Assembly: GCA_030431875.1 (NCBI GenBank)
Contig: JAUIIG010000002.1
Coordinates: 1-64,000 of the forward strand
Source of the DNA: Alphaproteobacteria bacterium
GTDB lineage: Bacteria > Pseudomonadota > Alphaproteobacteria > Sphingomonadales > Sphingomonadaceae
Direction of reading: 5' to 3'
Length of the DNA: 64,000 nucleotides
Numbering within the stretch: the first letter of the stretch is position 1; every line of letters begins with the position of its first letter. The notes under the pieces are model-generated. The model was not told the origin of the DNA. It did not search any database and saw only the letters and a program-made list of their open reading frames with translations. Below, in pieces: positions 1,636 to 63,761 of this stretch. Made by a program: the position numbers and the translations under genes.

Positions 1636-2757
1636 TCAGTCGGCCATATTGAAGATTTTGTCGTTCATCTTCTCGACCACGTCGCGGGTATGGTCTTCTG
1701 ACAGGTGCGAGTAGCGCTTCACCATCTGAAGCGTCTTGTGACCCAGAACTTCGGCAATCTCCAACTGGCTTGCGCCATTCATGGCAAGGTAGCTTGCCGC
1801 ACTGTGGCGTAGATCGTGGAAGCGGAAGTCGATGATGCCCGCCTTTTCTCGTGCATTCTCCCACGCCTTACGGATGTCGATAGCGCCTTTGCCGTCGCTT
1901 CGCGGGAAAAGGTAATCCGACTTGATGTCACGCTTTGTGAGATACTTCTCTCGCCAGTTGAGGTGCTCTTCGAGAACCGCCTTGAGATAGCTCACTATCG
2001 GTGCCTTGCGGGTTTCTCGGTTCTTGGTCTCCCGCAAAACCGCCACTTGGCGTTCAAGATCGAGATCACGAAGCGTCAGCTTCAAAATCTCATTCTTTCG
2101 TGCACCCGTCGAAAGGGCGAACACCACAACCGGATATAGCTGCTTGTTCGGGCTCGCCTTGCACGCTGCAAGGATGGCTTTGCGTTCGTCGTCATCGAGG
2201 AAGCGCACACGCTCTTTGGTCGCCTTCGTAATCCGGTTCACACCTTCCATCGGGTTGGCAGAACCGATCCATCCCCACTTCTGAGCGAACTTGAGCAGTA
2301 TCTCCAGATTATCGCGGTAGTGCTTCACTGTTTTGCGCGACTTCGGCTTGGCCGGCTTCTCGCCATCCTCAAGCTGCGCTCGTTGATCACCCGCGTTTGT
2401 CAGCTGGGCAATCTTTCGGCTGATAATCTCATGCGTCAGGAAGGAGAGGGCATACTCGCCTAGCTCTCGCTCCCAATGGTTCAGGTAAGTGGTTTCAACA
2501 CGCTGGCTCGATGGAGCCTTGTGAGGGAGAATGTCCTCTTTGTACTTTTCAATCACATCACCGAGGGTGCGCTTCTTCGCCTCACTCGCAGTCGAGCGGA
2601 TATCGCCCCGGCGCATCCCGAGCTCAGTTTCCTGTGCCCAGGCCTTTGCGTCGGTAAGTCGCTTGAAACTGCGCTGAACTGGCGGATATCCGTGCATTCG
2701 GATCATTACACGATAGGTTTGCCCGTTCTTGCCCTCTCTTTTCTGAATGGTCGCCAT
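1636..2757 (-). CDS. Tyrosine-type site-specific integrase
   Basis: A 373-residue phage/island integrase. The N-terminal arm-binding region (residues 1-65) and SAM-like core-binding domain (about 66-165) precede the catalytic domain. The full active-site set can be read: R220 in ALSTGARKNEIL, K245, H314 and R317 in FHDLRHSAA, H340 in EVLGHKTLQ, and nucleophile Y349 in VKRYSHLS. Length and motif order are normal, so the enzyme should be active. It lies next to the tRNA-fMet fragment at 2968-3012, which identifies its target site. The 210 bp between gene and att site hold short direct repeats that could be arm-type binding sites. Start ATG at 2757. Confidence 0.93.
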   Translation of the reverse strand: MATIQKREGKNGQTYRVMIRMHGYPPVQRSFKRLTDAKAWAQETELGMRRGDIRSTASEAKKRTLGDVIEKYKEDILPHKAPSSQRVETTYLNHWERELGEYALSFLTHEIISRKIAQLTNAGDQRAQLEDGEKPAKPKSRKTVKHYRDNLEILLKFAQKWGWIGSANPMEGVNRITKATKERVRFLDDDERKAILAACKASPNKQLYPVVVFALSTGARKNEILKLTLRDLDLERQVAVLRETKNRETRKAPIVSYLKAVLEEHLNWREKYLTKRDIKSDYLFPRSDGKGAIDIRKAWENAREKAGIIDFRFHDLRHSAASYLAMNGASQLEIAEVLGHKTLQMVKRYSHLSEDHTRDVVEKMNDKIFNMAD

Positions 2758-2824
2758 TTACGATTATTTTCCAGCTAGTTAAAATTTATGATACATTCTA
2801 ACTGCTTATGGGGTAGGGCGCAAA

Positions 2825-2958
2825 GCAAATTTGGCACAATTTTGGCACAGTAAGCCCCAAAAAATGCCCATAACTGACAACAAGCCACAACAACCGAAAT
2901 GCGGTAAACTATTGAAATATATATTGTCACTTGTTGAGGATTGTTGAGAATTTTGTTG
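2825..2958. repeat. Short direct repeats between integrase and att site, possible arm-type sites
   Basis: Two copies of TTTTGGCACA-like sequence (ATTTGGCACA and TTTTGGCACA) lie in tandem near 2828-2849. A second group of TTGTTGA/TTGTTG units (TTGTTGAGGA, TTGTTGAGAA, TTTTGTTGTT) fills about 2932-2960 beside the attachment site. The stretch is AT-rich. Integrases of this family bind short direct repeats flanking the core, so these are candidates, seen only by eye. Confidence 0.4.
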
Positions 2959-2967
2959 TTCTTAAAT

Positions 2968-3012
2968 CTCATAACCTGAAGGTCGTTGGTTCAAATCCAA
3001 CTCCCGCAACCA
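2968..3012 (+). other. Attachment site: 3' half of tRNA-fMet(CAT) duplicated at the element border
   Basis: The sequence from the anticodon loop (CTCATAACC) through the variable loop, T-arm (GGTTCAAATCC) and acceptor end (CCCGCAACCA) matches the 3' 45 nt of an initiator tRNA-Met with encoded CCA. What precedes it (TTGTTGTTCTTAAAT) cannot form the 5' half. Integration into the 3' part of a tRNA leaves such a fragment at one element end while the intact gene is restored at the other, which would lie left of the window. The adjacent integrase supports this. Confidence 0.88.
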
Positions 3013-3042
3013 CCGTAACCCTATCAAAAACAACTTGTAATC

Positions 3043-3066
3043 GGCCCGCAGCCTAGCTGTCGGGCC
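3043..3066 (+). terminator. Hairpin downstream of the tRNA-fMet 3' end
   Basis: GGCCCGCAG and CTGTCGGGCC can pair (6 bp perfect outer stem, 3 bp inner stem, one mismatch). It lies about 30 nt after the tRNA end and could be the original terminator or processing signal of the tRNA gene. No U-tract follows, so the call is weak. Confidence 0.3.
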
Positions 3067-3104
3067 TGCTCGGCGTTGGGCGCCGGGGCTGCTAGGAGGA
3101 CGCC

Positions 3105-3725
3105 ATCCAAACCGACAATCCGATCCTGACGAAGCGCTTCGACAAGGCGCTGGCCTACGCCAGCGCGGCCCACCGCAACCAGTTGCGCAAGGGCAGCGGC
3201 GTGCCCTATGTCTCGCACCTGCTCGGTGTGGCGGCGATCGCGCTCGAGAACGGGGCGGACGAGGACCAGGCGATAGCCGCCCTGCTGCACGATGCGGTGG
3301 AAGACCAGGGTGGCGCGGCGCGGCTCGCCGATATTCGCGAACAGTTTGGTGAGCGGGTGGCGCAGATGGTGGCCGACTGCACCGATGACCTGGAGGAGAC
3401 CAAGGGCAAGGCACAGACGCCCGAGGCGAAGCTCGCTGACTGGCAACAACGCAAGCGCGCCTACCTCGACAGCCTGGGCCACAAACCTCGCGCCTCGCTG
3501 GAGGTGAGCCTTGCCGACAAGACCCACAACGCCGCGGCGATCGTCTGCGATCTGCGCGCGCATGGAGAGGTGGTCTGGGAGCGCTTCCGCGCGAAGAGGG
3601 ATGGCACCCTGTGGTACTATCGCGCGCTGGCCGATGCCTTTGCGCGGCATGCGCCGGGCAGGGCCTGTGACCGCTTCGAGCGGACCGTGCGCGAATTGGA
3701 GGATCTCGGCGCCGAGCCGGGTTAG
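3105..3725 (+). CDS. HD-domain phosphohydrolase, probable non-AUG (ATC) start
   Basis: The protein carries the HD signature of RelA/SpoT-like guanosine polyphosphate hydrolases: YVSHLLGVAAIAL, then ALLHDAVEDQGG (catalytic HD), then VSLADKTHNAAAI. It has no synthetase domain and is short (about 200 aa), like stand-alone HD proteins of this type. Similarity-like sequence (NPILTKRFDKALAYASAAHR) extends in frame upstream of the only usual start candidate, TTG 3183. The frame is closed by TAG at 3093. A strong AGGAGG overlaps that stop and sits 5 nt before ATC at 3105. The start is therefore ATC, or an ATG changed by mutation or sequencing error; 206 residues result. Substrate unknown; (p)ppGpp or another nucleotide is possible. 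Confidence 0.75.
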   Translation: MQTDNPILTKRFDKALAYASAAHRNQLRKGSGVPYVSHLLGVAAIALENGADEDQAIAALLHDAVEDQGGAARLADIREQFGERVAQMVADCTDDLEETKGKAQTPEAKLADWQQRKRAYLDSLGHKPRASLEVSLADKTHNAAAIVCDLRAHGEVVWERFRAKRDGTLWYYRALADAFARHAPGRACDRFERTVRELEDLGAEPG

Positions 3726-3741
3726 CGCCGTGTCCCCGGCG

Positions 3742-3757
3742 ATTGTCGACAATTTCG
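3742..3757. promoter_or_regulatory. GntR-family operator, site 1 (before sulfatase)
   Basis: ATTGTCGACAAT is a perfect 12-bp palindrome followed by TTCG. It lies 85 bp upstream of the sulfatase ATG. The same 16-bp pattern (ATTGT-Y/R-ACAAT-TTCG) recurs beside the gntR gene (7471-7486) and before the CocE-type hydrolase (19633-19648), so it is the likely binding site of the regulator at 6768-7448. Confidence 0.65.
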
Positions 3758-3826
3758 GCAGTCAGTTTCTGCTTGTTTCGTTCCGGCCTGTGGGGTCACA
3801 ATCCCGGCAAGCACAGGAGAGACTGG

Positions 3827-5245
3827 ATGGATCGAGAGGGTATTTCGCGTCGCGGAGCCATGGGGGCAATGGCGGCGATGGCAGCGGCCGGGGCAATCCC
3901 AGCTAAGGCACAGCGGCAGCTGTCGCGGCCCAACTTCCTCGTCATCCTGGCCGATGACATGGGTTATGCTGACCTCGGCTGCTACGATTCCCGCCACATC
4001 GAAACGCCGGAACTGGACTTGCTCGCAGCGCAGGGCGTGCGGTTTACCGATGCCTATGCCAATTCGCCCGTCTGTTCACCGACACGCCTGTCCATGGCGA
4101 CCGGGCGATACAACCGCGCCTTTCCGAGCGGCCTGTCGGAGCCGTTCCGGCCCGGTCCTTGGGGTGATACCGCCATTCCGCCGGGTTACGATACCTGGAT
4201 GAAGCTGCTGCAGCAGGCCGGTTACCGCACTTCGCTCGTGGGCAAGTGGCATCTTGGCCCGACCGACGAAGGCAGTCCGCTCAACTTTGGCTATTCCGAC
4301 TTCTTCGGCTTCCTTGGTGGCGGCATCGATTATTTCACCCACGAATATGCTGGCGAACACGCGCTGATGGAGGGCACGGACCCGGTCGAGCGTGATGGCT
4401 ACATGACCACCCTGCTCGCGGACGAGGCGATCAGCCGCATCCGCGAGAATGGCGAGAGCGACACCCCTTTCGCCATCAGCCTGCATTTCAATGCGCCACA
4501 CTGGCCGTGGGAAGGGCCCGAGGATTTCGCGCTCGGCACACAGTCGTTCCACAACGACGGCGGGTCACTGGAAATCTACGCCGAGATGATGGAATCGATG
4601 GACCGCAACATCGGCCGTGTCCTGCGCGAACTGGATAACCAGGGGCTGGCGGACGATACCATGGTGATCTTCACCAGTGACAACGGCGGCGAACGGTATT
4701 CGGACGTATGGCCGTTTCGCGGCACCAAGGGTTACCTGCTCGAAGGCGGGATACGGGTGCCGACGATCATCCGGTACCCACGGCAAGTGAGGGGCGGGCA
4801 GGTGTCGGACCAGATCGCCCTGACGATGGACAACTATCCCACCATGCTCGATGCCGCCGGGGTCGACTTCAGCCATATGACGCTCGACGGGATTTCGCTG
4901 TTGCCGCACCTCGTCAACGGCACCACCGAAGACCGTACTGTCTTCTGGCGCTTCCAGGGCCACAACCAGGCGGCCGTTCGCTGGCGCAACTGGAAATACT
5001 ACCAGCTCGAAGGCAACGAGTGGCTCTACGACCTGTCCTACGACGGGCACGAGCGAAACGACCGCAAGCAGGCCAATCCCGAAATGCTGGCCGAACTCAA
5101 GGCGGCACTGGCCGAATGGGACGGGCGCATGGCTCCGATCGACGATGTGCCCGGTTACTGTGGCAGCCCGGTCGGCCAGGCTGGCGAGCTGCAGATCACC
5201 GAGGATTCCAATTGTCGCGGGCCAAGTACCACCGTCAGCAGTTGA
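3827..5245 (+). CDS. Tat-exported arylsulfatase (formylglycine type)
   Basis: A 472-residue sulfatase that should hydrolyse sulfate esters in the periplasm. The N terminus (SRRGAMGAMAAMAAAGAIPA, residues 7-26) is a twin-arginine signal ending near AKAQ. Metal ligands are seen in LADDMGYADLGC (D43/D44) and TSDNGGE. The residue converted to formylglycine is C83 in the C-S-P-T-R signature, so this is the Cys-type that needs a formylglycine-generating enzyme, not present in this window. The start at ATG 3827 is fixed by AGGAGA 7 nt upstream and by the Tat signal; longer in-frame versions lack both. A GntR-type palindrome lies upstream and an aldehyde dehydrogenase follows 97 bp downstream. Context suggests a sulfated aromatic or phenolic substrate; the true substrate is unknown. 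Confidence 0.92.
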   Translation: MDREGISRRGAMGAMAAMAAAGAIPAKAQRQLSRPNFLVILADDMGYADLGCYDSRHIETPELDLLAAQGVRFTDAYANSPVCSPTRLSMATGRYNRAFPSGLSEPFRPGPWGDTAIPPGYDTWMKLLQQAGYRTSLVGKWHLGPTDEGSPLNFGYSDFFGFLGGGIDYFTHEYAGEHALMEGTDPVERDGYMTTLLADEAISRIRENGESDTPFAISLHFNAPHWPWEGPEDFALGTQSFHNDGGSLEIYAEMMESMDRNIGRVLRELDNQGLADDTMVIFTSDNGGERYSDVWPFRGTKGYLLEGGIRVPTIIRYPRQVRGGQVSDQIALTMDNYPTMLDAAGVDFSHMTLDGISLLPHLVNGTTEDRTVFWRFQGHNQAAVRWRNWKYYQLEGNEWLYDLSYDGHERNDRKQANPEMLAELKAALAEWDGRMAPIDDVPGYCGSPVGQAGELQITEDSNCRGPSTTVSS

Positions 5246-5342
5246 CGACAGGCGCAGGTTCCACAATGAGCATCTGCGAACGCGGCGCCCGCAACAAGTG
5301 CGGTCTGCGCCGCCGGTTCTATGCAATTATTGGAGAGGCAGG

Positions 5343-6746
5343 ATGGCAAGTTTCGACAGATTGAACCCGATGACCGGCGAGGTCGCATCGTCGGCGGAGG
5401 CGATGCAGCCTGGCGATATCCCGGCGATTGCGGCGAAGGCGCAGGAAGGTTTTGCCGCCTGGTCGAAGATGGGACCCAACGCCCGCCGCGCCGTGCTGAA
5501 CAAGGCCGCTGACGCGCTGATGGGCAAGAAGGATGACTTCGTTGCCGCGATGATGGGCGAGATCGGCGCGACTGCTGGCTGGGCCATGTTCAACCTCGGC
5601 CTTGCTGCCGGCATGGTGCGCGAGGCCGCTGCCATCACCACGCAGATCTCCGGCGAGGTCATTCCCTCGGACCACGAAGGCACCGTGGCCATGGGCCTGC
5701 GCGAGCCGGTTGGCGTGCTGCTGGGCATCGCTCCGTGGAACGCGCCGATCATCCTCGGTGTGCGCGCCATCGCCGTGCCGCTGGCTTGCGGCAACTCCGT
5801 GATCCTGAAGGCCAGCGAACAGTGCCCGCGCACCCACGCCCTGATCATCGAGGCCTTTGCCGAAGCCGGCTTCCCCGAAGGCGTGGTCAACGTCGTCACC
5901 AATGCGCCCGAAGATGCTGCCGAAGTGGTCGGCGCGCTGATCGATGCGCCGGAAGTCAAGCGGATCAACTTCACCGGCTCCACCGGCGTCGGCAAGATCA
6001 TCGCCAAGCGTGCAGCCGAACACCTCAAGCCCGTGCTGCTGGAGCTGGGCGGCAAGGCGCCGATGCTGGTGCTCGAAGATGCCGACATTGACGAGGCAGT
6101 GAAGGCTGCCGGGTTCGGCGCCTACATGAACCAGGGCCAGATCTGCATGTCGACCGAACGGATCATCGTGGTCGATGCCGTGGCCGACGAGTTCGCGGCC
6201 AAGTTCGCCGAGAAGGTCCGCAACCTTCCGGCCGGCGATCCTACCGAAGGCAAGACCCCGCTGGGCGCGGTGGTCGACCGCAAGACGGTGGACCACTGCT
6301 ACTCGCTGATCGAGGAAGCGACCTCGAAGGGGGCAGAGCTGCTGGTGGGCGGCGAGACGACCATGAACGTGGTTATGCCTGCCCACCTCGTCGACAAGGT
6401 GACGCCCGACATGAAGCTGTTCCGCGACGAGAGCTTCGGCCCCGTGGTCGGCATCATCCGCGCGCGCGACGAAGCTCACGCGATCGAGTTGGCCAACGAT
6501 ACCGAATACGGCCTGTCGAGCGCGGTGTTCACCAGGGACACGGCCCGCGGCCTGAAGGTGGCGCGCCAGATCCAGGCGGGCATCTGCCACGTCAACGCCA
6601 GCACGGTGTCCGACGAGCCGCAAATGCCGTTCGGCGGGATGAAGGCATCGGGCTATGGCCGCTTTGGCGGCAAGGCCGGTATCGATGCCTTCACCGAACT
6701 GCGCTGGATCACCTTCGAAACCGAGCCCGGGCATTACCCGATCTGA
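5343..6746 (+). CDS. NAD(P)-dependent aldehyde dehydrogenase, vanillin/salicylaldehyde dehydrogenase-like
   Basis: This 467-residue protein is a complete aldehyde dehydrogenase that oxidises an aldehyde to the acid. Seen are the PWN motif (N133), the cofactor loop FTGSTGVGK (residues 210-218), the general base E234 in LELGGK, and the catalytic cysteine C268 in MNQGQICMST. Overall wording (GVLLGIAPWNAPIILGVRAI, QMPFGGMKASGYGRFGG) is close to vanillin and salicylaldehyde dehydrogenases of proteobacteria; that is recognition from memory, not a search. Start ATG 5343 follows GGAGAGGCAGG. Placed behind the sulfatase and under the same putative operator, it may oxidise an aromatic aldehyde released downstream of desulfation. 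It ends 21 bp from the convergent regulator gene. Confidence 0.88.
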   Translation: MASFDRLNPMTGEVASSAEAMQPGDIPAIAAKAQEGFAAWSKMGPNARRAVLNKAADALMGKKDDFVAAMMGEIGATAGWAMFNLGLAAGMVREAAAITTQISGEVIPSDHEGTVAMGLREPVGVLLGIAPWNAPIILGVRAIAVPLACGNSVILKASEQCPRTHALIIEAFAEAGFPEGVVNVVTNAPEDAAEVVGALIDAPEVKRINFTGSTGVGKIIAKRAAEHLKPVLLELGGKAPMLVLEDADIDEAVKAAGFGAYMNQGQICMSTERIIVVDAVADEFAAKFAEKVRNLPAGDPTEGKTPLGAVVDRKTVDHCYSLIEEATSKGAELLVGGETTMNVVMPAHLVDKVTPDMKLFRDESFGPVVGIIRARDEAHAIELANDTEYGLSSAVFTRDTARGLKVARQIQAGICHVNASTVSDEPQMPFGGMKASGYGRFGGKAGIDAFTELRWITFETEPGHYPI

Positions 6747-54777: not shown

Positions 54778-56650
54778 CACTTGTTGCCCTGTTGCGGCCA
54801 TGCGGCCCGCCCTGTTGTTCTGGCAGTTCGATCCTGGCCACGGTCTGTTCGCCTTCGCGCTGGAGGGAGAAGTTCCCCCCGATTGCGCTGGCGCGCGCCG
54901 CCATGTTGTCCAGTCCTCTGCCGCCGGGTCGTTCATCGCCCAGCAAGGTACCGTTATCGCAGACCGAAATGGCATGCGATGCCACATTTACGGTCACGGT
55001 GTTGCCGTTGGAATGCTTGAGGGCATTGGTAAGCGCTTCCTGCAGCACGCGGAAGACCTGCAGCACCGCCCGCGGGGGCAGGGCGGGCAGGTTGCCGTCG
55101 GCGCTGTCGTTCCATTCGAAGGCAAGGCCCGCATCGCTCACCCGCTCGTTCGCCCGTTCGCGGAACAGCGCGAGGGCCGAGCCGAGCGATTCCCCCACCG
55201 AATCCATCGAATCGATCATCAGCCGCATTTCGTCGAGCGCACCCTGCAGCCCACGCGTCACCCGTTCGGGGTCGGCCTTGCCGCGTCGGGCGAGCAGCAG
55301 CAGGCTCATCAGCTGCGAGCCGAGCCCGTCGTGCATGTCGGCCATGATGCGCCGACGCTCGTCCTGGTGCGCCTGTTCGCGCAGCAGCGCCTTCTCGCGC
55401 TGGTGTGCCGTGGCCAGTTCCGCGGTGCGTTCATCCAGCTGGCCCTGCAGCTCCTTGTTGAAATCCTCGGCAGAGGAAAACAGGCGGATGTTGCGGGCAA
55501 CGAATGCCGCCACCAGTGCCACCAGCAGGATCGGGATCGCGTAATTGGTCTGCTGCCCCCAGCCGAGGTCGAAGACGATCGAAATGCCGGTTCGCACGGC
55601 AATGGCGAACAGCAGCAGGAAGACCGCCGCCTCCCAGTGGCGTTCGCGGCCGATGACGGGGATGTTCCACAGGATGATGGCGGCAAAGGCGCTGGAGAGG
55701 ATCACAACCAGCGAATAGAGCATCCACAGCTGGCGGCCGTTGCCGGGGTCAAGGAACACCGCATAGGCATGGAAAGCCAGCCCCAGCGCCCAGGCGGCGA
55801 GGGTGACGATCGTGACATGCGGCAGGCGGCGCGGCCCCCAGCTGTTGGCGAGGTTCACCCCGGCCACCGGAATCATCAGCGAGATGGGCACGCCGAGAAA
55901 CAGCCACAGCGCGCCGGTGACCGGCGGATCGGGGATGATCATCATCAGCAGGGCGCCGGCCCAGCTTGATGCCAGCATGCCCAGCCAGAACAGGTAACTG
56001 CCCTGGCGGCTGCGCGCCCAGGCCATCAGTGCGATCAGGCCAATGGCGAAACCGATGGCGACGCTGGCATAGACATAGTCGTTGAGCAGGAAGAGCCGGA
56101 AACGCGTCCCGGCTGCGGTCGTCTCGTACAGGCCCATGGTCGGCGCATCGACGCGGAACCCCTCGGTGCCCGGCGCGCTCGCCATGATGTAGACCAGCTC
56201 GTTGCTGCCCTCGCGCAGCAGGCCCGACGGCAGCCGGTGCAAGCCGCGAAATACGCGGCCATGGAAACTGGTGTCAGGCAGCCGCATCTCGCCGCTGCCG
56301 AAGTAGAGCGAACCGTTGAGGTAGGCGTAGTAATTGGTGGCCGTGACATTGGCCGCCTCGCCCAGTCCGCCTTCGGGAACCGTGTCGAGATCGAAGGTGA
56401 AGCGCGCGGCGTAGTATCCACCTTCGCAACAGGAGGACCACGGCGTCTCGGCGGGGGTGTATTCCGCCGCCTGCGCTGCTTCCCAGTCGGGACTGTCCAG
56501 CTGCGCCACGGCAAAGCTGCTCGGGCGCACCGGATCGATTTCGGGCGGGGCGCCGGTGATCAGCGGGGCGACCAGCAGCCAGTAGGCCGCCTGCACCAGC
56601 AAGACGGCGAGGACCAGGTGCGGCCAGTTGTGCTGCTTTGCTGTCTGCAT
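54770..56650 (-). CDS. Membrane sensor histidine kinase (7TMR-DISM-like, HisKA_3)
   Basis: 626 residues from ATG 56650 (a GTG three codons upstream is possible). TM1 at about 10-32, then a periplasmic jelly-roll-like domain (about 35-195: FRGLHRLPSGLLREGSNELVYI), seven or so TM helices (about 200-395), a coiled coil (400-430) and the HisKA_3 segment ERRRIMADMHDGLGSQLMSLL with the phospho-His, then HATPase_c (GGRGLDNMAARASAIGG). Matches NarL-partner kinases that bind a carbohydrate-like ligand outside. Pair of the regulator at 54106. Confidence 0.9.
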   Translation of the reverse strand: MQTAKQHNWPHLVLAVLLVQAAYWLLVAPLITGAPPEIDPVRPSSFAVAQLDSPDWEAAQAAEYTPAETPWSSCCEGGYYAARFTFDLDTVPEGGLGEAANVTATNYYAYLNGSLYFGSGEMRLPDTSFHGRVFRGLHRLPSGLLREGSNELVYIMASAPGTEGFRVDAPTMGLYETTAAGTRFRLFLLNDYVYASVAIGFAIGLIALMAWARSRQGSYLFWLGMLASSWAGALLMMIIPDPPVTGALWLFLGVPISLMIPVAGVNLANSWGPRRLPHVTIVTLAAWALGLAFHAYAVFLDPGNGRQLWMLYSLVVILSSAFAAIILWNIPVIGRERHWEAAVFLLLFAIAVRTGISIVFDLGWGQQTNYAIPILLVALVAAFVARNIRLFSSAEDFNKELQGQLDERTAELATAHQREKALLREQAHQDERRRIMADMHDGLGSQLMSLLLLARRGKADPERVTRGLQGALDEMRLMIDSMDSVGESLGSALALFRERANERVSDAGLAFEWNDSADGNLPALPPRAVLQVFRVLQEALTNALKHSNGNTVTVNVASHAISVCDNGTLLGDERPGGRGLDNMAARASAIGGNFSLQREGEQTVARIELPEQQGGPHGRNRATSDG

Positions 56651-56765
56651 GGTCCCCACCAGCGAGAGCCCCCGAAGCCGTCTCCGCCTGCTGCCGTGAT
56701 TATGGCAGGCCTTCGGCGAAAGTCATGCCATATGCTTGGCAGGCTTAACCCGAAGGAAAGCCGGA

Positions 56766-57782
56766 CTAGAGTTCCGCCGCAACGGGCGGGTCTTCACCGG
56801 GTTCGAGGCGCTCTCCCTTCCACAGGCGGTAAAGCCGGTCTCCCAACAGGTCTCCGGGGCCGGTGGCGAAGCGTGGGTGGCCGAAGTGTTCCATCACCGC
56901 GTGCTGCTTGGCCAGCGCCCGCCGGTCTTGCGCGACGACGGGGTCAAGGAACAGCCGGATCGCGGCCTGCTTCAGCCAGCCGGGCGCAAGGCCTTTCGGG
57001 GTCGAAAAACGCGCAAAGGGAGTGAAGCTACCTGCGGTGGCGGGGGTGAAGATCGCGGTGACACAGAGCGTCAGCCGCTTCTCTCCCTCCCACCGCGCCT
57101 GCACAGTGCAGGGCGGGTAATAGGTGCTTACCGACCGGGTGCGCTCGCGTTCCAGCACCCGCGACATGATCCCGTGGTCGGGAGCGTCCTGGTGGATGGT
57201 CATGGCCAGGCTGTCGCCGTGGCTGGCGACCACCAACTGGACCTTGCGGCGCTTGTCGCGGCGGCGGATGAAGCCGTGGTGCAGGTGGCCGGTGTGGAAC
57301 GGGTCCATGACGTTCTCGACCGCGTCGAATGCGCGGCCCTGCCAGGTTCCCTGCTGCCACCAGAAGTGGTCGAGCTGCGGATTGCCGAAATCCGGGGGCA
57401 GGGGCGGCTCGGCTGGTGCCTTGTCGGACAGGGCAACGAATATGCCGCCGTGCCTCTCCACCACGCGCAGGGCTTGGGCGGAAAGGCGCTGTCCATCGCC
57501 CGCTGCCAGCGCGCAGCCGGGTACCTCGACACAGGTGCCGTCCGTAGCAAAGCGCCAGCCATGGTAGGGACATTCGAGCGCGCCATCGCGCAGTCGTCCT
57601 TCCGAAAGGGGATAGTTGCGGTGCGGGCAGCGATCGACCAGGGCGCCCACTCCGTCGGCGGTGCGGAACAGCGCCAGCGGGGTGTCGCAGAGCATGACCT
57701 TGCGCACCTGCCCCGGCCCCAGGTCGCGCGACAGGGCAACCAGGTGCCAGGCATTGCGGACAGCGTCGGGGAAAGCGCTCAT
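56766..57782 (-). CDS. Rieske-type non-heme iron oxygenase
   Basis: 338 residues from ATG 57782, which overlaps the ATP-grasp stop (ATGA). Rieske cluster: C52-P-H54 and C71-P-Y-H74; mononuclear iron segment FDAVENVMDPFHTGHLHH (about 148-165). N-terminal Rieske plus C-terminal catalytic domain, as in one-component oxygenase alpha subunits (vanillate demethylase, steroid or natural-product oxygenases). It needs an electron-transfer partner, not found here. Last gene of the KAS III cluster; likely a late oxidative tailoring step. Confidence 0.9.
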   Translation of the reverse strand: MSAFPDAVRNAWHLVALSRDLGPGQVRKVMLCDTPLALFRTADGVGALVDRCPHRNYPLSEGRLRDGALECPYHGWRFATDGTCVEVPGCALAAGDGQRLSAQALRVVERHGGIFVALSDKAPAEPPLPPDFGNPQLDHFWWQQGTWQGRAFDAVENVMDPFHTGHLHHGFIRRRDKRRKVQLVVASHGDSLAMTIHQDAPDHGIMSRVLERERTRSVSTYYPPCTVQARWEGEKRLTLCVTAIFTPATAGSFTPFARFSTPKGLAPGWLKQAAIRLFLDPVVAQDRRALAKQHAVMEHFGHPRFATGPGDLLGDRLYRLWKGERLEPGEDPPVAAEL

Positions 57783-58906
57783 GACAGGTCTTCTCCGTTC
57801 CATTCGATGTCGCGGGTGGTCGCGGCCGTGGCCGACATGCCGTGTCGCCAGCCGAGCACGGTGAAGCGCATTCCGTCGATCAATGCGCCCAGCGCGGGCA
57901 GCCGGTCACCCGGACGGCCAAGGGCATCGTCCCCGGCCCGCAGGGTGGCATGCCATTTCCGCCAGCCCGCCCCGGCCAGCGCCATGGGCAGGCCATAGGC
58001 GAACATGGCCGCGCCGACATAGGCGGGACGCGGCTCTTGCGGCGGCATGGGCTCGCCTTCGGTCATGGCCCGCGCCAGCGCGCCATCCCCGGCCAGCAGG
58101 TGCACCCCGCTGGTCGCGCGCGGGTTGCATTCGATCAGCCACGGCTGGCCCCTATCGTCGACCATCGCATCGCAGGCGAATTGGCCGGACAGGCCGGTGG
58201 CACCGGCAAGGGTCCCGGCGATTTCGCGCAGGCGCTCCGCCAGTGGGCCGGCCAGCGGCTCGAAAGCGAAGGAAGCACCGCCAGCGAGCCGCCAGTCAGA
58301 TCGGTAGGCTGTAAAGGCCAGCAACACGCCCGCGCGGGCGACGGCGTAGAACGAGACCTCGCTGCCAAGCACGCGCCGCTGCGCCAGCCAGTCCTCCCCG
58401 ATGGTGGCAAGCAGGTGCGGCTGCGGGCCGATCAGCGTCTTCCCGCCAAAGCGGCTGAAGCGCGGCTTGAACACCCACCCGGCGGGATCAGGCGGCAGGC
58501 TGGCAGGATCGCAGGCGACGCTTTCGGGCACGGGCAGGCCAAGGTCCGCGGCAAGGCGGGCAAAGGCCAGTTTGTCGTGCAGGCGGCGGAGCATGTCGAC
58601 GGGCGGAGCGAACAGCAGGTCGCGACCCCTTGCCCAGGCGGCCAGGTGGAACACCTCTTCGCAGACCGGCACCACGAACTGCGGCTCGAGCCTGTCGACC
58701 AGGCCATCCATGTCGCGGCGAAAGCCTGCCGCATCGAGCGCGGGCGCGGCGTAGCGATGCACGGCGCTGGGCGCGCGCGACCACGAGGCCATGCGCGACG
58801 GGCCGCAGTCCGCCACGTGCACGTCCCATCCGGCAGCGCGGAAATCGCGCGCCAGGTCCAGCGCCGCGCCCGCCCGCGCGCCGGTGATCAGGACGCGGTC
58901 AGCCAT
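57779..58906 (-). CDS. ATP-grasp ligase of the KAS III cluster
   Basis: 375 residues from ATG 58906. N-terminal Rossmann-like region (DRVLITGARAGAALDLARDF), then ATP-grasp motifs: VFKPRFSRFGGKT (ATP-binding Lys), SFAFEPLAGPLAERL, FACDAMVDDRGQPWLIECNPRATSG (metal Glu/Asn, about 265-290). Such enzymes join a carboxylate, as acyl phosphate, to an amine or thiol. It overlaps both neighbours, so is co-translated with the oxygenase and the adenylating enzyme. Substrates not known. Confidence 0.87.
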   Translation of the reverse strand: MADRVLITGARAGAALDLARDFRAAGWDVHVADCGPSRMASWSRAPSAVHRYAAPALDAAGFRRDMDGLVDRLEPQFVVPVCEEVFHLAAWARGRDLLFAPPVDMLRRLHDKLAFARLAADLGLPVPESVACDPASLPPDPAGWVFKPRFSRFGGKTLIGPQPHLLATIGEDWLAQRRVLGSEVSFYAVARAGVLLAFTAYRSDWRLAGGASFAFEPLAGPLAERLREIAGTLAGATGLSGQFACDAMVDDRGQPWLIECNPRATSGVHLLAGDGALARAMTEGEPMPPQEPRPAYVGAAMFAYGLPMALAGAGWRKWHATLRAGDDALGRPGDRLPALGALIDGMRFTVLGWRHGMSATAATTRDIEWNGEDLS

Positions 58907-60125
58907 GCCACGCCACCTTGCGGCGCTTGGGGCCGGGCCACGGCGGCAGGTCAAAAGCGAGGGTGACGGGCACCTGCGCCAGGGTCTGCAATTTGGCCCG
59001 AGCCTTTTCGGCGAGGTCCGGTTGGCATTCCGGCGCGACTTGCAGGATAGCATGATCGGCTTGGGCTTGGGCCCGCCAGCGTGGTCCTGCACCAAGGGCG
59101 GTCTCCACCGCATAGGCGACCTTGCGCGGGAGGACCGTCCGATCCCCGAAGTGCCAGAGATCGCCGATGCGACCCTGTATCGGCAGGATCGTGCGTCCGG
59201 CAAAGCCGCAAGGGCAGGGGCCTTGGCTGTCGAGTTCGACCAGGTCGTCGCCGCGCAATCGCACCACCGGCTGGCTGCAGCGGCGCAGGTCGGTGATGAT
59301 CGGGCGGAAGGCCTTCGTGCCGGGGATGGGTTCGAGTTCGATTTCCATGACGTGGTCGTTCAGGTGCAGTCGCCCATGCGAACAGTCGGCGGCCAGGAAA
59401 CCTTCGGTCGCCTGCCAGATCCCGCGAGGGTCCATGCCGAAGTGATCGGCAACCGAGCCGCGTTCAATGCCGGACATCGGCTCGCTGCCGTGGAACAGGT
59501 GGCGCAGCTTGGGGAACCGCGCTCCGGCCTTGACGAAGGCCAGCAGGCGGTGGGCGGGCGCGATCAGGACGGTGGGGGCAAAGTCCTCAATGGCATGTTG
59601 CGCTTCCTCGGCCGAGCGTTCCAGCGGCACATGTTCGAACACGATCCTTCCTCGCTGGACGTCGCTGTAGAGGTCGCTGCCCGCGCGCAGGTGCAGGGCG
59701 ATGCGCTGGCGGTGCAGCAGGGCGGCAGGCGGCAGCAGGCGGGCGAGGCTCTGGCCGATATAGTCGGCGCGCTCGGCCTCGCTGGCGACGAACAGGCCGC
59801 GCGTCCCGCCGCCCGATCCGGTGGACCAGCCCGCGCTCACCGCGCCGCTTGCTTCGCCGCGTTCGGCGGCATCGGCCAGCATGCGCAGGGCGGCATCGGA
59901 CAGGCCAAGGCTGTTCCAGCGACCATAGTCCGCCCGCATGTCGGCAACGTCCGTTACGGGGAAGGCTGACAGGGGCTTGCCCGCATGGGACGCCAGCGCC
60001 GGGGTGGCGGCGAGGGCAGGCTGCAGCGCCTGCCACTGCCGCTGCCGCCAGCGAGACAACTGCGCGGGTGACATGCGCATGGCGCGCCGCGTGCGCCACC
60101 AGCTCCACAGGATGTCAGTCCGCAT
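58899..60125 (-). CDS. PaaK/F390-synthetase-like adenylate-forming enzyme
   Basis: 408 residues from ATG 60125; the longer frame upstream lies in the MBL gene. The P-loop-like SAGWSTGSGGGTRGLF (about 98-113) corresponds to the SSGTTG motif of adenylating enzymes, and WQATEGFLAADCSHGRLHLND with LRGDDLVELDSQGPCPCGFAG to the A5/A8 region of the PaaK branch. The CPCG cysteines are typical of the F390-synthetase-related branch. It should activate a carboxylic acid as acyl-AMP. Overlaps MBL and ATP-grasp genes on either side. Confidence 0.85.
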   Translation of the reverse strand: MRTDILWSWWRTRRAMRMSPAQLSRWRQRQWQALQPALAATPALASHAGKPLSAFPVTDVADMRADYGRWNSLGLSDAALRMLADAAERGEASGAVSAGWSTGSGGGTRGLFVASEAERADYIGQSLARLLPPAALLHRQRIALHLRAGSDLYSDVQRGRIVFEHVPLERSAEEAQHAIEDFAPTVLIAPAHRLLAFVKAGARFPKLRHLFHGSEPMSGIERGSVADHFGMDPRGIWQATEGFLAADCSHGRLHLNDHVMEIELEPIPGTKAFRPIITDLRRCSQPVVRLRGDDLVELDSQGPCPCGFAGRTILPIQGRIGDLWHFGDRTVLPRKVAYAVETALGAGPRWRAQAQADHAILQVAPECQPDLAEKARAKLQTLAQVPVTLAFDLPPWPGPKRRKVAWHG

Positions 60126-60963
60126 CGTCGCCTCGGTAGGCAATGGCACTTGCCGGACAATGCGACGGCAGGATCGCCAGCTCGCCATTGTTGCAGCGGG
60201 CTTGGTGCAACTGGTCGAGCGTGCCGCAATAGGTAGCCGTATCGCCCATCAGCGCGGTGGTGAGCCGGGGTGGCGGGCGGTTCTCGTCAATCGCCTTGCC
60301 CGACCAAACGGCATCGGCGCAAAGCAGCACCGCGCGGTCATTCGCGTCGACAAAGGCGAGGCCCCAGTGGCCCGGACAGTGCCCCGGCAGTTCTACCGCC
60401 AGCAGGCTGCCGTCGCCGAGAATGTCACGCCCCGAGGTGAAGGGCGCAAAAGCAGTGGGCAGGGCGACCTCGGGCGCGTGCTCGAAGAAATGCGCCTGCG
60501 CGTCCATTGCTGTCGGTACCAGCGCCGGAAGCATGCCCTTGCGCACCAGCGCGAAGCGCGCGCCCTGCCGCAGGTGCGCGAGGCCCGCCTGCGCGCAATA
60601 CATCGGCAAGTGCGCAAGGTGCCGAGCGCCCGCCACGTGGTCGCCGTGGAAGTGCGACACGATCAGGCCCGCGAGGCTGTCTTCGGCAATGCCGTCCCGT
60701 GCCAGCCAAGCCGGCCAGTGATGCTCCTCGCGAACGGCAACCGGCGTCGCCCAGCGATAGAACCGCTCGGGGAAGGGCTCCGTCGCCTCGATGAAGGCCG
60801 GATCGTAGCCGGTGTCGAACAGGAAATGTCCGCGCGTGGGATGCGCGATCACGCCCACCAGCGCGGGGAAGTCGACCGGGCGCAGGCTGCCGCCTTTCAG
60901 CGTGCTCGTCTCCGGATGGCGGGTCTTGCCGCGCTCCAGCCAGCGGAAACCGACGCGGATCAT
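60115..60963 (-). CDS. MBL-fold metallo-hydrolase (lactonase/thioesterase-like)
   Basis: 282 residues. Zinc motif VSHFHGDHVAGARHL (H-x-H-x-D-H), later H in LPGHCPGHWG and D in LLCADAVWSG, complete the set of a di-zinc enzyme like AHL lactonases. No signal peptide. In this operon it could hydrolyse a thioester or lactone intermediate, or provide self-protection. 11 bp overlap with the adenylating enzyme gene and 4 bp with the reductase gene. Confidence 0.88.
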   Translation of the reverse strand: MIRVGFRWLERGKTRHPETSTLKGGSLRPVDFPALVGVIAHPTRGHFLFDTGYDPAFIEATEPFPERFYRWATPVAVREEHHWPAWLARDGIAEDSLAGLIVSHFHGDHVAGARHLAHLPMYCAQAGLAHLRQGARFALVRKGMLPALVPTAMDAQAHFFEHAPEVALPTAFAPFTSGRDILGDGSLLAVELPGHCPGHWGLAFVDANDRAVLLCADAVWSGKAIDENRPPPRLTTALMGDTATYCGTLDQLHQARCNNGELAILPSHCPASAIAYRGDDAD

Positions 60964-61940
60964 GCCGCGCCTTCCAGCTTGCGCGCCTCGGTCAGCAGGG
61001 TCTCGAGCGCGTCGTGCTGCGGTGTGAAGCCCAACATGCGGCGCGCGGGTTCGGGATCGAAAGTCTGGCTGTGGCCCAGCATGGCGAGCGAATAGCGCGT
61101 CAGCGGCGGCTCGCTCTTCGCGCCGACCAATTGCGCGCCGCGTTCCATCACGGTGGCCAGTACGCGCGCCAGCGGCATGGGCAGGTGCACCATCTGCGGT
61201 TTGTGCCCCAGTGCCTCGGCCAGCAGCCGCGCCAGGTCGCGCACCGCGACGGGCCGCCCGCCGGAGATGTTGATGCCCTTGCCGGTAATGGCGTGCGCGC
61301 GTTCCTCTGCCTCGAGGCAGGCCCAGGCCACGTCGCGCAGGTCGGTCAGTTCGACCAGCGCCTTGCCGCCGCCGGGCAGCGGCAGGCGTTGGCGGCTGGC
61401 CATCTCGACAAGCCGCGGCAGGATCACCCGGTCGCCCTCGCCCACCAGCGCGCGCGGGCGGATGGCGCAGGTCGCCATGCCGTCGCTGCGTGGGGCGAGC
61501 GCCACGCGCTCAGCCGCCAGCTTGGTGCGGGCATAGTGGTTGAGCGGCCAGTCGGCGGGCGGGGTGTGCTCGCCGATCTGCTCCTGGTCGCGAAAGCGCG
61601 CGTAGATCGAGGGCGAGGAGACAAAGACGAACCGCTGGCAGCCCGCTGCGCTGGCGGCATCGAGCATGCGGTGCGTCGCCTCGACATTGGCGGCGGCAAA
61701 GTCCTCGCGCGAGCCCCAGCTGGCGGAAAGGGCAGCGGCGTGGATCACCGACTGGCAGCCTTCGGCGAGGGCATAGAGGTCCGCGTCAGGGGCGGTGAGG
61801 TCGCAAGCGACGAACTCGCCCGGTCCGGCATAGGCCGCGCGGCCCGTGGCGCGCACCTGGTGCCCGCGTGCAAGCGCCTCGCGCACGAGTGCCTTGCCTA
61901 GGCCGCCGGTCGCGCCGGTAATGAGCACGCGGCGGCTCAC
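60960..61940 (-). CDS. NAD(P)-dependent epimerase/3-beta-HSD-like reductase
   Basis: 326 residues of the extended SDR family: VLITGATGGLGKALV (residues 5-19), active-site YARTK (Tyr/Lys), and GKGINISGGRPVAVRDLARLL in the C-terminal part, typical of 3-beta-hydroxysteroid dehydrogenase/OleD-like proteins. In the ole olefin pathway an OleD-type enzyme reduces the beta-keto product of an OleA synthase; here the neighbouring gene is also a KAS III-type synthase, which suggests a comparable ketone reduction. Coupled by 4-bp overlap to both neighbours. Confidence 0.87.
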   Translation of the reverse strand: MSRRVLITGATGGLGKALVREALARGHQVRATGRAAYAGPGEFVACDLTAPDADLYALAEGCQSVIHAAALSASWGSREDFAAANVEATHRMLDAASAAGCQRFVFVSSPSIYARFRDQEQIGEHTPPADWPLNHYARTKLAAERVALAPRSDGMATCAIRPRALVGEGDRVILPRLVEMASRQRLPLPGGGKALVELTDLRDVAWACLEAEERAHAITGKGINISGGRPVAVRDLARLLAEALGHKPQMVHLPMPLARVLATVMERGAQLVGAKSEPPLTRYSLAMLGHSQTFDPEPARRMLGFTPQHDALETLLTEARKLEGAA

Positions 61941-62941
61941 AGCGTCACCACCATGGCGCCCGCGCTGATCCCGGCGGCGGTGCCGAGGAGCAGCACGTGG
62001 TCGCCCGGCTTGGCGGCACCCGTGTCCAGCGCATGGGTTAGGGCGGTGGGGATCGAGGCGGCGATCTGGTTGCCATGGGTGGCGAACAGATCGACCACCC
62101 GCTCCCCGCGCGGGGCGAAGAGGCGCTTGACGTGCTCGACGCCGGGGGCGCTGGCCTGGTGGCAGACCACGCAGGTGAGGTCGTCCCTGCCGATCCCGGC
62201 CTGCACCAGCGCCTCGTCGATCACGGCGGGCAGTACGCGCGCGGCGGCCTTGAAGATGCCGAATGCGTCCATCTCGAACCGCGATCCGGCCACCAGCGCA
62301 TCGTAGCCTTCCTCGACGCGCAGCTTCGTACCGCCAGCGCGCAGTTGCGCCAGTGCATGGTGCGCGCCGTGCGTCACGAACTTTGCGCCAGCGATGCCGC
62401 GCGTGTCATCGCCAGTATCGGGGCAGGCCTCGATCGCCAGTGCTGCCGCACCGTCGCCGAAGATCGACCGGTTCTTGGGGTTCTCGGGATCGAGTCCGCA
62501 GGAAGCAATGTCCGCCGCGAAGACCAGCACGCGCTTCCACCGGCCCGTGGCAATACCCATGCCCGCCACGTCGAGCGCGGCCATGAAGGACAGGCAGGCC
62601 TGGTTGACGTCGAAGGCGACAATCCCCGACTTGCCGAGGCCCAGCCGGTCCTGCACCAGCACGGCGGTGGAGGGGATGGGCTGTTCCATTACTCCGCAGC
62701 CGCCGATCACGGCGTCGAAGTCGCCATCGGCCCACCCGGCGCGATCCAGCGCCACGCGCGCGGCCTCTGTGGCCATCATCGAAGAGGTCTCGTCCGGCGC
62801 GGCGACGTGCCGGCTGGCTATGCCGAATTCGCCCTCGTGCCAGCCCTGCGGCTGGCCGAAACGCGCATCCATCTCGCTGGAAAGCAAGACGTTGCGGGGG
62901 CGGTAGGCACCCCATCCGGCAATTGTGAAGGCACTGATCAT
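61937..62941 (-). CDS. 3-oxoacyl-ACP synthase III-like condensing enzyme
   Basis: 334 residues from ATG 62941; the extended frame upstream enters the operator region. Catalytic triad C116 (DVNQACLSF), H261 (CHQAS) and N291 (ATHGNQIAAS) is complete, so it should condense acyl thioesters or transfer acyl groups. SIFGDGAAALAIE is the usual KAS III loop. It is the first gene of a six-gene minus-strand operon and divergent from a TetR gene. It is likely a specialised enzyme, not housekeeping FabH, since no fatty acid genes are near. Confidence 0.9.
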   Translation of the reverse strand: MISAFTIAGWGAYRPRNVLLSSEMDARFGQPQGWHEGEFGIASRHVAAPDETSSMMATEAARVALDRAGWADGDFDAVIGGCGVMEQPIPSTAVLVQDRLGLGKSGIVAFDVNQACLSFMAALDVAGMGIATGRWKRVLVFAADIASCGLDPENPKNRSIFGDGAAALAIEACPDTGDDTRGIAGAKFVTHGAHHALAQLRAGGTKLRVEEGYDALVAGSRFEMDAFGIFKAAARVLPAVIDEALVQAGIGRDDLTCVVCHQASAPGVEHVKRLFAPRGERVVDLFATHGNQIAASIPTALTHALDTGAAKPGDHVLLLGTAAGISAGAMVVTL

Positions 62942-62990
62942 CGATCTTGCTCCATCTGATTCGCCTGTAGCATTCCACGAAACTAAACAC

Positions 62991-63025
62991 TGTTCAATTA
63001 AAAAATAGACAATGTTCAATTTGTC
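62991..63025. promoter_or_regulatory. Candidate TetR operator in the divergent KAS III / tetR promoter
   Basis: TGTTCAATT occurs twice (62991-62999 and 63013-63021), 22 bp apart, two helical turns. The second copy sits inside the inverted repeat GACAA-N8-TTGTC (63008-63025). The block is AT-rich in a GC-rich surrounding and lies between the two start codons. Confidence 0.6.
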
Positions 63026-63041
63026 GGTTATCCCCCGTCAT

Positions 63042-63644
63042 ATGGGAAGACGGTCCGATCACACCCCGCAAGAGCTGCGCCAGCTGCTGGTGCGCGAGGG
63101 CCATGCCCTGATGGCAGAGCGCGGCTTTGCCCGATTCTCCGCACGTGAGGCGGCGCGGCGGGCGGGCTATTCGGTGGGGACGATCTACAACGTCTTCGGC
63201 TCGCTCGATGCTTACCTGCTGGCGGTCAACAGCCGCACTTTCCGGCTGTGGAGCGCCTGGCTGGAGGCCGCGCTGGACGGTGTGCCACCGGGAGGTACCG
63301 CGCGGCTGGAGGCACTCGTACGCGCCTATTTCAGCTTCGCCGCCGAGAATGCCAATTGCTGGCTGGCCATCTACGACCACCGCATCGACCGCGAGACGCC
63401 CATCGCCAAGGAAGACGTCGCCGCGCGCGAAGCACTGACAGCCATCGTCGACCGCGAGGTGAGCGCATGGATGGGCAAGCCCGCCGATGCCGAGACCCGG
63501 CGGCTGGTCCGCTCGCTGATCTCCATGGTCCACGGCCACTGCGCCATGTGGCTGTCAGGCAGTTTCGCCCTGCTGCAGGAAAGCGACCCTGCCAGCCAGG
63601 CGCTCGCCCGCGTGCTGGAAGTGCTCGCCGCGCAATCCGATTGA
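63042..63644 (+). CDS. TetR-family transcriptional regulator of the KAS III cluster
   Basis: 200 residues from ATG 63042; an ATG at 63012 lies inside the repeats and is less likely. HTH: RQLLVREGHALMAERGFARFS then AREAARRAGYSVGTIYNVFGS (residues about 12-52), followed by an all-helical ligand domain including MVHGHCAMWLSGSFALLQ. The divergent layout and the operator repeats before it suggest it represses both itself and the biosynthetic operon. No Shine-Dalgarno sequence is obvious, so the message may be leaderless. Confidence 0.88.
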   Translation: MGRRSDHTPQELRQLLVREGHALMAERGFARFSAREAARRAGYSVGTIYNVFGSLDAYLLAVNSRTFRLWSAWLEAALDGVPPGGTARLEALVRAYFSFAAENANCWLAIYDHRIDRETPIAKEDVAAREALTAIVDREVSAWMGKPADAETRRLVRSLISMVHGHCAMWLSGSFALLQESDPASQALARVLEVLAAQSD

Positions 63645-63687: not shown

Positions 63688-63761
63688 GCGGGTGTAGCTC
63701 AATGGTAGAGCAGGAGCTTCCCAAGCTTAAGACGAGGGTTCGATTCCCTTCACCCGCTCCA
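63688..63761 (+). tRNA. tRNA-Gly(CCC)
   Basis: 74 nt including CCA. Acceptor stem GCGGGTG/CACCCGC, D-arm GCTC-AATGGTA-GAGC, anticodon loop TTCCCAA with anticodon CCC, T-arm GAGGG-TTCGATT-CCCTT. The anticodon stem GGAGC/GCTTA has one G-A mismatch at its outer end and a G-U pair, otherwise the cloverleaf is complete. No duplicated fragment of it is seen nearby. Confidence 0.95.

Follow-up and report, generated by a model that had tools for sequence, protein, structure and literature searches.

Among the described systems closest to the operon reported here are the ole pathway, whose enzymes OleA, OleC and OleD produce beta-lactones according to an excerpt of PMC7064751, and the myxopyronin and corallopyronin ketosynthases MxnB and CorB, the former of which condenses two beta-ketoacyl chains in vitro according to an excerpt of PMC5724707 (where 4V2P is the structure of MxnB and 3S23 that of OleA). 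We analyzed a six-gene operon with a divergent tetR gene at positions 56766-63644 of a 64,000-nucleotide stretch (the window) that opens contig JAUIIG010000002.1 of an Erythrobacter-like member of the Sphingomonadaceae (GenBank assembly GCA_030431875.1; genome G000, contig C25; 2.96 Mb in 91 contigs, 96% complete). The six enzyme-encoding open reading frames (ORFs) overlap slightly and occupy 62941 to 56766 of the minus strand, and tetR runs on the plus strand from 63042. A first, sequence-only reading had assigned the enzymes to the beta-ketoacyl-acyl carrier protein synthase III (KAS III), short-chain dehydrogenase/reductase (SDR), metallo-beta-lactamase (MBL), adenylate-forming enzyme (ADE), ATP-grasp and Rieske oxygenase families, all of which were recovered with Pfam and NCBIfam. 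Its picture of a compact, tetR-linked acyl pathway with no carrier protein gene in the operon also held, as did the OleD-like character of the reductase, the PaaK type of the adenylating enzyme and the ATP-grasp ligase. In our estimate, the chances are about even that the operon is one class of a so far unnamed, widespread biosynthetic operon family whose four-enzyme core acts on acyl thioesters. The observations behind this reading are gene content, gene order, conservation, catalytic residues, predicted folds and the rarity of the operator-like boxes. As in the sequence-only reading, no named pathway was matched and no description of such a family was found in the literature searched, where subscription journals were poorly covered and preprints outside reach.

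A four-gene core recurs in several phyla

Neighborhood comparison, which the sequence-only reading had proposed, showed that the first four genes recur as a core in other phyla and that the ATP-grasp and Rieske genes make up one accessory class. A single-protein query over named genomes matched nothing, and relatives were obtained with an alignment query instead: the ADE alignment scan gave at least 577 confirmed relatives in named genomes, the best 80 of which yielded 79 loci. KAS, SDR, MBL and ADE were all present in 72 of these, and in 70 they stood in that order, the two exceptions being Streptococcus loci in which KAS comes last. The remaining seven loci missed at least one core match (L063, L067, L069, L070, L086, L099 and L106), some of them being truncated by contig ends. 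The full-core loci were spread over Pseudomonadota, Bacillota, Cyanobacteriota and Chlamydiota, with the addition of one Melainabacteria contig, and the nearest named loci carried the titles Erythrobacter, Aurantiacibacter, Novosphingobium, Pacificimonas and Sphingopyxis. The median spacing at both the SDR-MBL and the MBL-ADE junction was a 4 bp overlap across the 72 loci, and this tight packing and kept order exceed chance. Pairwise distances of the four core proteins were correlated (r 0.89-0.95 over the same loci, computed without an unlinked control gene), as expected for genes travelling as a unit.

A contig titled Halomonas ventosae (L036) has the full set of six genes, 52-74% identical to those of the window, reflecting either transfer or a mislabelled assembly, and a metagenome-assembled genome titled Chlamydia trachomatis (L090), a label that appears doubtful, has the core with ATP-grasp, GNAT and Rieske matches.

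An ADE search in 61 genomes (that of the window and 60 relatives) matched 11, eight of them, including that of the window, full-length at 55% identity or more. In a sample of the genus, KAS was found at E <= 1e-60 in 9 of 40 genomes; seven of these nine had all six enzymes in a row (the ATP-grasp match of L030 being partial), and two, L027 and L029, had tetR and the core only, with neither ATP-grasp nor Rieske genes. The core was also found on plasmids: all eight records examined, out of 31 that matched, carried KAS, SDR, MBL and ADE in order, with an ATP-grasp gene between KAS and SDR in two.

A close version of the core occurs in Escherichia coli, where a KAS-SDR-MBL DNA query matched 672 of 5,426 complete genomes, 671 of the 673 places being chromosomal. 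At the E. coli locus L022:4774-11655, located between narI and purU, the core is followed by genes for a PAP2 protein, a fatty-acid hydroxylase (weakly OlsE-like) and a desaturase. The E. coli ADE reached 755.5 bits with TIGR02304 and a Paenibacillus KAS reached 424.9 bits with PRK07204, both above the cut-off and both from the same core operon, and TIGR02304 had no match in an E. coli control genome.

Accessory genes fall into classes

Among the 72 full-core loci, 39 had an ATP-grasp gene, accompanied by a Rieske gene in 28 and by a GNAT gene in 13, and 21 had PAP2 and fatty-acid hydroxylase genes; ATP-grasp and PAP2 were never found together (0 of 72). ATP-grasp, often with Rieske or GNAT, defines the class of the window, and PAP2 with fatty-acid hydroxylase defines another. 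The GNAT loci belong to Bacillota, one cyanobacterium, the chlamydia-titled genome and some Alphaproteobacteria, and the 21 PAP2-hydroxylase loci are titled Enterobacterales, Burkholderiales and Neisseriaceae. A sulfotransferase gene adjoins tetR in two Rhodobacterales records (one confirmed by Pfam), and a glycosyltransferase gene lies upstream in one Streptococcus locus. In the Novosphingobium locus L039, a 1,159-residue ORF (2588-6067) with major facilitator superfamily, acyltransferase and AMP-binding domains, a fusion that we take to be Aas/LplT-like, stands between tetR and KAS, and a second Novosphingobium locus, L040, likewise has a long stretch there. The PAP2, fatty-acid hydroxylase, desaturase, sulfotransferase and glycosyltransferase accessories of these other classes would suit lipids or hydroxyl groups.

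The condensing enzyme is closest to MxnB and CorB

With a profile of the KAS family, the top matches were MxnB (4v2p, 324 bits) and CorB (4yuc, 313 bits). The best other KAS III in a wider alignment reached 270 bits and OleA (3s23) 119 bits; the FabH candidate of the genome itself scored 248 bits, against 98-121 for OleA rows. The Cys-His-Asn triad (C116, H261, N291) was invariant in 40 KAS rows. At the position of the OleA Glu117-Pro pair, all 20 core KAS rows have I/L-P, MxnB and CorB have V-P, and the three OleA rows used for comparison, which pass PRK09258, have E-P. Of the OleAs in the alignment of the PMC7064751 excerpt, only two lack this pair, and the same replacement of the glutamate was noted for MxnB and CorB in an excerpt of PMC4578411. 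The motif Qx[IVL]P was likewise found in 20 of 20 core KAS rows and in MxnB and CorB. The HQAN of FabH corresponds to HQ[AG]S in the core KAS rows, but HQVS occurs in two OleA rows and the HQxS motif is therefore not specific for MxnB and CorB. A tree of 26 rows grouped MxnB and CorB with the 20 core KASs in one clade and left the FabH candidate and the three OleAs outside. Because the operon KAS is nearest to MxnB and CorB and lacks the OleA glutamate, and because MxnB joins two chains, chain joining is favored as its probable reaction.

The other enzymes

The best NCBIfam model of the SDR, a protein of the epimerase type, was OleD (NF042422), below its cut-off, and the protein was 34-36% identical to two OleDs above the cut-off and 28-34% identical to five weaker ones. 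A phylum scan with NF042422 served solely to fetch true ole loci: with the SDR superfamily being ubiquitous, 395 of 398 genomes had a match, six of them above the cut-off. The MBL matched 4-pyridoxolactonase and acyl-homoserine lactone (AHL) lactonase models, all below cut-off (best 61.6 bits vs 325), and with its family profile AHL lactonases came first (best Protein Data Bank match GcL, E 2.5e-22) and 4-pyridoxolactonase was among 20 matches. Its zinc motif HxHxDH is present, with H104, H106, D108, H109, H195, D217 and H268 invariant in 26 rows.

No Pfam family matched the ADE at E <= 0.001 in the window, where it was recognized by NCBIfam models only (best TIGR02304), nor did any match the ADE of E. 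coli. Its AlphaFold2 model (predicted local distance difference test score, pLDDT, 91.9) had PaaK-type ligases as best Foldseek matches (PaaK, NatL2, AjiA1 and ClxA), and K401 was invariant in 50 rows. Two ORFs, one in L154 and one in L157, pass models of OleC, the olefin beta-lactone synthetase; neither was matched by the ADE profile at E 1e-3. The model of the ATP-grasp ligase (pLDDT 94.5) matched PylC, PurT, PurK and an L-amino-acid ligase. The nearest solved relatives of the Rieske protein were DdmC and SxtT, and no Rieske reductase partner was found among the six genes.

A proposed pathway and its rivals

In the pathway that we propose, the KAS III would join two acyl units in the manner of MxnB and CorB, giving a beta-keto (or lactone- or pyrone-like) intermediate, whose ketone the OleD-like SDR would reduce to a hydroxyl. 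The MBL-fold enzyme would then hydrolyze a thioester or lactone to the free acid, which the PaaK-like enzyme would adenylate and transfer, with CoA, an alcohol or an amine as the acceptor. The class of the window may go further, the ATP-grasp ligase adding another carboxylate-amine (or similar) bond and the Rieske enzyme oxidizing the product. The acyl units would be supplied by primary metabolism, since the operon has no carrier protein gene. Each of these chemical steps, as well as the joined-chain nature of the product, is inferred. A bolder version, which we consider unlikely, is that the four-enzyme kit links two acyl chains to give a hydroxy-acid backbone with two tails, similar in outline to mycolates or sphingoids, as a pan-bacterial lipid pathway with lineage-specific decoration. 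The decoration would consist of ATP-grasp ligation and Rieske oxidation in the class of the window, whereas E. coli and Burkholderiales would use desaturation, hydroxylation and dephosphorylation, Rhodobacterales sulfation and Streptococcus glycosylation.

Several points weigh against the proposed biosynthetic pathway. The 79 loci were picked by similarity to the ADE of the window, so that the counts are no census, and the correlated distances lack the unlinked control. In an even sample of the taxonomic class, 55 of 385 genomes had a TIGR02304 match at E <= 0.001; most of these matches covered only part of the profile, and none was above the cut-off. The ATP-grasp and Rieske steps are dispensable, because L027 and L029 have tetR and the core alone. 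The likeness of the MBL to lactonases is at the level of the superfamily, and some PaaK-like enzymes do no more than ligate CoA. The support of the MxnB/CorB clade is 84/90, with one FabH and three OleAs outside and long branches flagged, and a KAS with the Cys-His-Asn triad but devoid of the glutamate would be compatible with decarboxylative, FabH-like chemistry as well.

The sequence-only reading had likened the operon to olefin and beta-lactone pathways. Taken as a functional twin of ole, the KAS would condense two acyl-CoAs, the SDR would reduce the product, the ADE would close a beta-lactone, the MBL would open or consume it and the ATP-grasp and Rieske enzymes would tailor the result. 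We regard such a twin as unlikely. The analogy stands for the condense-reduce-adenylate logic and for the reductase, with its OleD best model and its identity to the two above-cut-off OleDs, and the nearness of the MBL profile to lactonases and the beta-lactone products of OleA, OleC and OleD also count for it. It does not stand for the kinship of the condensing and adenylating enzymes: none of the 20 core KAS rows has the Glu117-Pro pair present in 3 of 3 OleA rows, the KAS is nearer to MxnB/CorB and to FabH, and the ADE profile misses the two confirmed OleC ORFs. Moreover, no alpha/beta-hydrolase domain of the OleB type was found among the six genes.

Somewhat less probable still is a KAS that, as a variant of FabH, uses malonyl-ACP in priming an unusual fatty acid, with the remaining enzymes converting this single chain to an amino-acyl or hydroxy-acyl metabolite. 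The catalytic triad is there, FabH-type chains rank directly after MxnB and CorB (with the FabH candidate of the genome well ahead of OleA) and the nearest NCBIfam model is named KAS III, but MxnB and CorB outscore FabH in the KAS profile, HQ[AG]S replaces HQAN (with the reservation, given above, about OleA), and a better FabH candidate is encoded by a separate gene (PF08541 127 bits at G000:C14 vs 79 bits for the operon KAS).

A catabolic or detoxification operon, in which a lipophilic TetR ligand would be broken down by the oxygenase, CoA ligase, hydrolase and reductase, is improbable: it would agree with the adjoining tetR, with the Rieske relative DdmC being a demethylase and with the resemblance of the MBL to 4-pyridoxolactonase and quorum-quenching lactonases, but the set comes with a KAS III in 72 of 79 loci, other classes include genes for a desaturase, a sulfotransferase, a glycosyltransferase and GNAT, and no transporter or ring-cleavage family is found among the six genes. 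The gene set, the recurring core and its lipid-type accessories agree better with acyl biosynthesis than with catabolism.

Operon layout, regulation and neighbors

The features of the region are given in Table 1. The 4-11 bp overlaps reported by the sequence-only reading were borne out by coordinates and sequence: 4 bp for KAS/SDR, 4 bp for SDR/MBL, 11 bp for MBL/ADE and 8 bp for ADE/ATP-grasp. The last overlap (ATP-grasp/Rieske) is 4 bp only with the Rieske ATG at 57782 and 25 bp with the start at 57803. For KAS, the ATG at 62941 is the more likely start, rather than TTG 63019, because the longer frame would run across the conserved operator-like boxes. For TetR, 63042 is more likely to be the start; M[GA]RRSDH is the start of several TetR homologs. 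No acyl carrier protein gene was found within the operon, and a gap of ~106 bp separates it from the next gene.

Table 1. Genes and operator-like boxes of the operon region, in positions of the window.
Feature	Positions	Strand	Remarks
KAS III-type condensing enzyme, core gene 1	61937..62941	-	PF08545/PF08541; likely start ATG 62941
SDR, OleD-like reductase, core gene 2	60960..61940	-	NF042422 OleD 187.5 bits, E 4e-55, cut-off 580
MBL-fold hydrolase, lactonase-like, core gene 3	60115..60963	-	PF00753 Lactamase_B
PaaK-like ADE, TIGR02304-related, core gene 4	58899..60125	-	TIGR02304 165 bits, cut-off 251.9
ATP-grasp ligase, accessory	57779..58906	-	PF02655 (ATP-grasp_3); PRK06849 205.5 bits, cut-off 406
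Rieske non-haem iron oxygenase, accessory	56766..57782	-	PF00355 + PF19112 (VanA_C); alternative start 57803
TetR regulator, divergent	63042..63644	+	PF00440, PF13305; ORF reaches ATG 63012
Operator-like box AATTGAACAGTGT	62987..62999	-	Exact WATTGAACANTGT match, one of two in the assembly
Operator-like box AATTGAACATTGT	63009..63021	-	22 bp from the first box

Both exact matches to WATTGAACANTGT in the assembly lie between the tetR and KAS starts (62942-63041), so that no further exact box pointed to a wider TetR regulon in this 96% complete assembly. Two further sites appeared when one mismatch was allowed; the reversed pattern, used as a control, gave no exact site and one with one mismatch. 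Alignment of the window with ten named relatives showed similar boxes in all, somewhat altered and most so in L044. For L039 and L040, the stretch adjoining tetR is the one that was aligned; in L039, a similar box precedes the KAS gene as an inverted repeat (as judged by eye). TetR would repress the operon and itself through the two boxes in the shared promoter; its binding at these predicted boxes, like its ligand, is putative.

Directly past tetR in the window lies a tRNA-Gly(ccc) (63688-63761). In L170, one other member of the genus, the cluster adjoins the same tRNA, and in 12 other cluster loci that were scanned, no tRNA was found in ten and a different one in two; the cluster therefore occupies several sites. 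The GC content was 0.67-0.72 across the cluster region (window 56000-62999), against 0.61-0.64 at 48-54 kb. A histidine kinase/response regulator pair next door, beside which the cluster also lies in L170 and L026, was considered as part of the cluster and rejected, because it stands beside the cluster only in the window and in the two nearest of the relatives found, G005 and G799, and occurs without it in G004 (69% complete). PADLOC matched none of the seven proteins as a defense system, and 41 pattern matches in viral contigs included none related to KAS, giving no sign of viral carriage.

Significance and comparison with known systems

With a core that recurs in at least four phyla and in roughly an eighth of complete E. 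coli genomes, such an orphan pathway would represent an unrecognized class of acyl metabolites or lipids in bacteria. Because the ADE matches no Pfam family, the operon family may escape tools built on Pfam-type rules. The Erythrobacter version has its own tetR, so that a single step may suffice to turn it on in type strains and expose the product; type strains carrying the class include Erythrobacter colymbi JCM 18338 (L043) and E. donghaensis DSM 16220 (L038).

The families named by the models TIGR02304 ("F390 synthetase-related"), PRK07204 and PRK06849 include the E. coli ADE and Paenibacillus KAS above their cut-offs, with the members in the window below them, and the models give no function beyond a general enzyme type. 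The ADE shares its fold with NatL2, AjiA1 and ClxA, which we take to be benzoxazole-pathway enzymes, but at 14-20% identity, and the ligands in the titles of their structures are aromatic acids. With OleABCD and oleACD, the operon has in common the condense-reduce-adenylate logic and a reductase whose best model is OleD; it differs in a KAS without the OleA glutamate, an ADE unmatched to OleC, the presence of an MBL and the absence of an OleB-type hydrolase. MxnB and CorB are the nearest solved relatives of the operon KAS and share with it the Cys-His-Asn triad, the lack of an OleA-type glutamate and Qx[IVL]P. However, they act at the end of large polyketide synthase (PKS)/non-ribosomal peptide synthetase lines, where they turn two beta-keto chains into a pyrone, whereas in the operon, which has no PKS, the KAS is followed by an SDR, an MBL and an adenylating enzyme.

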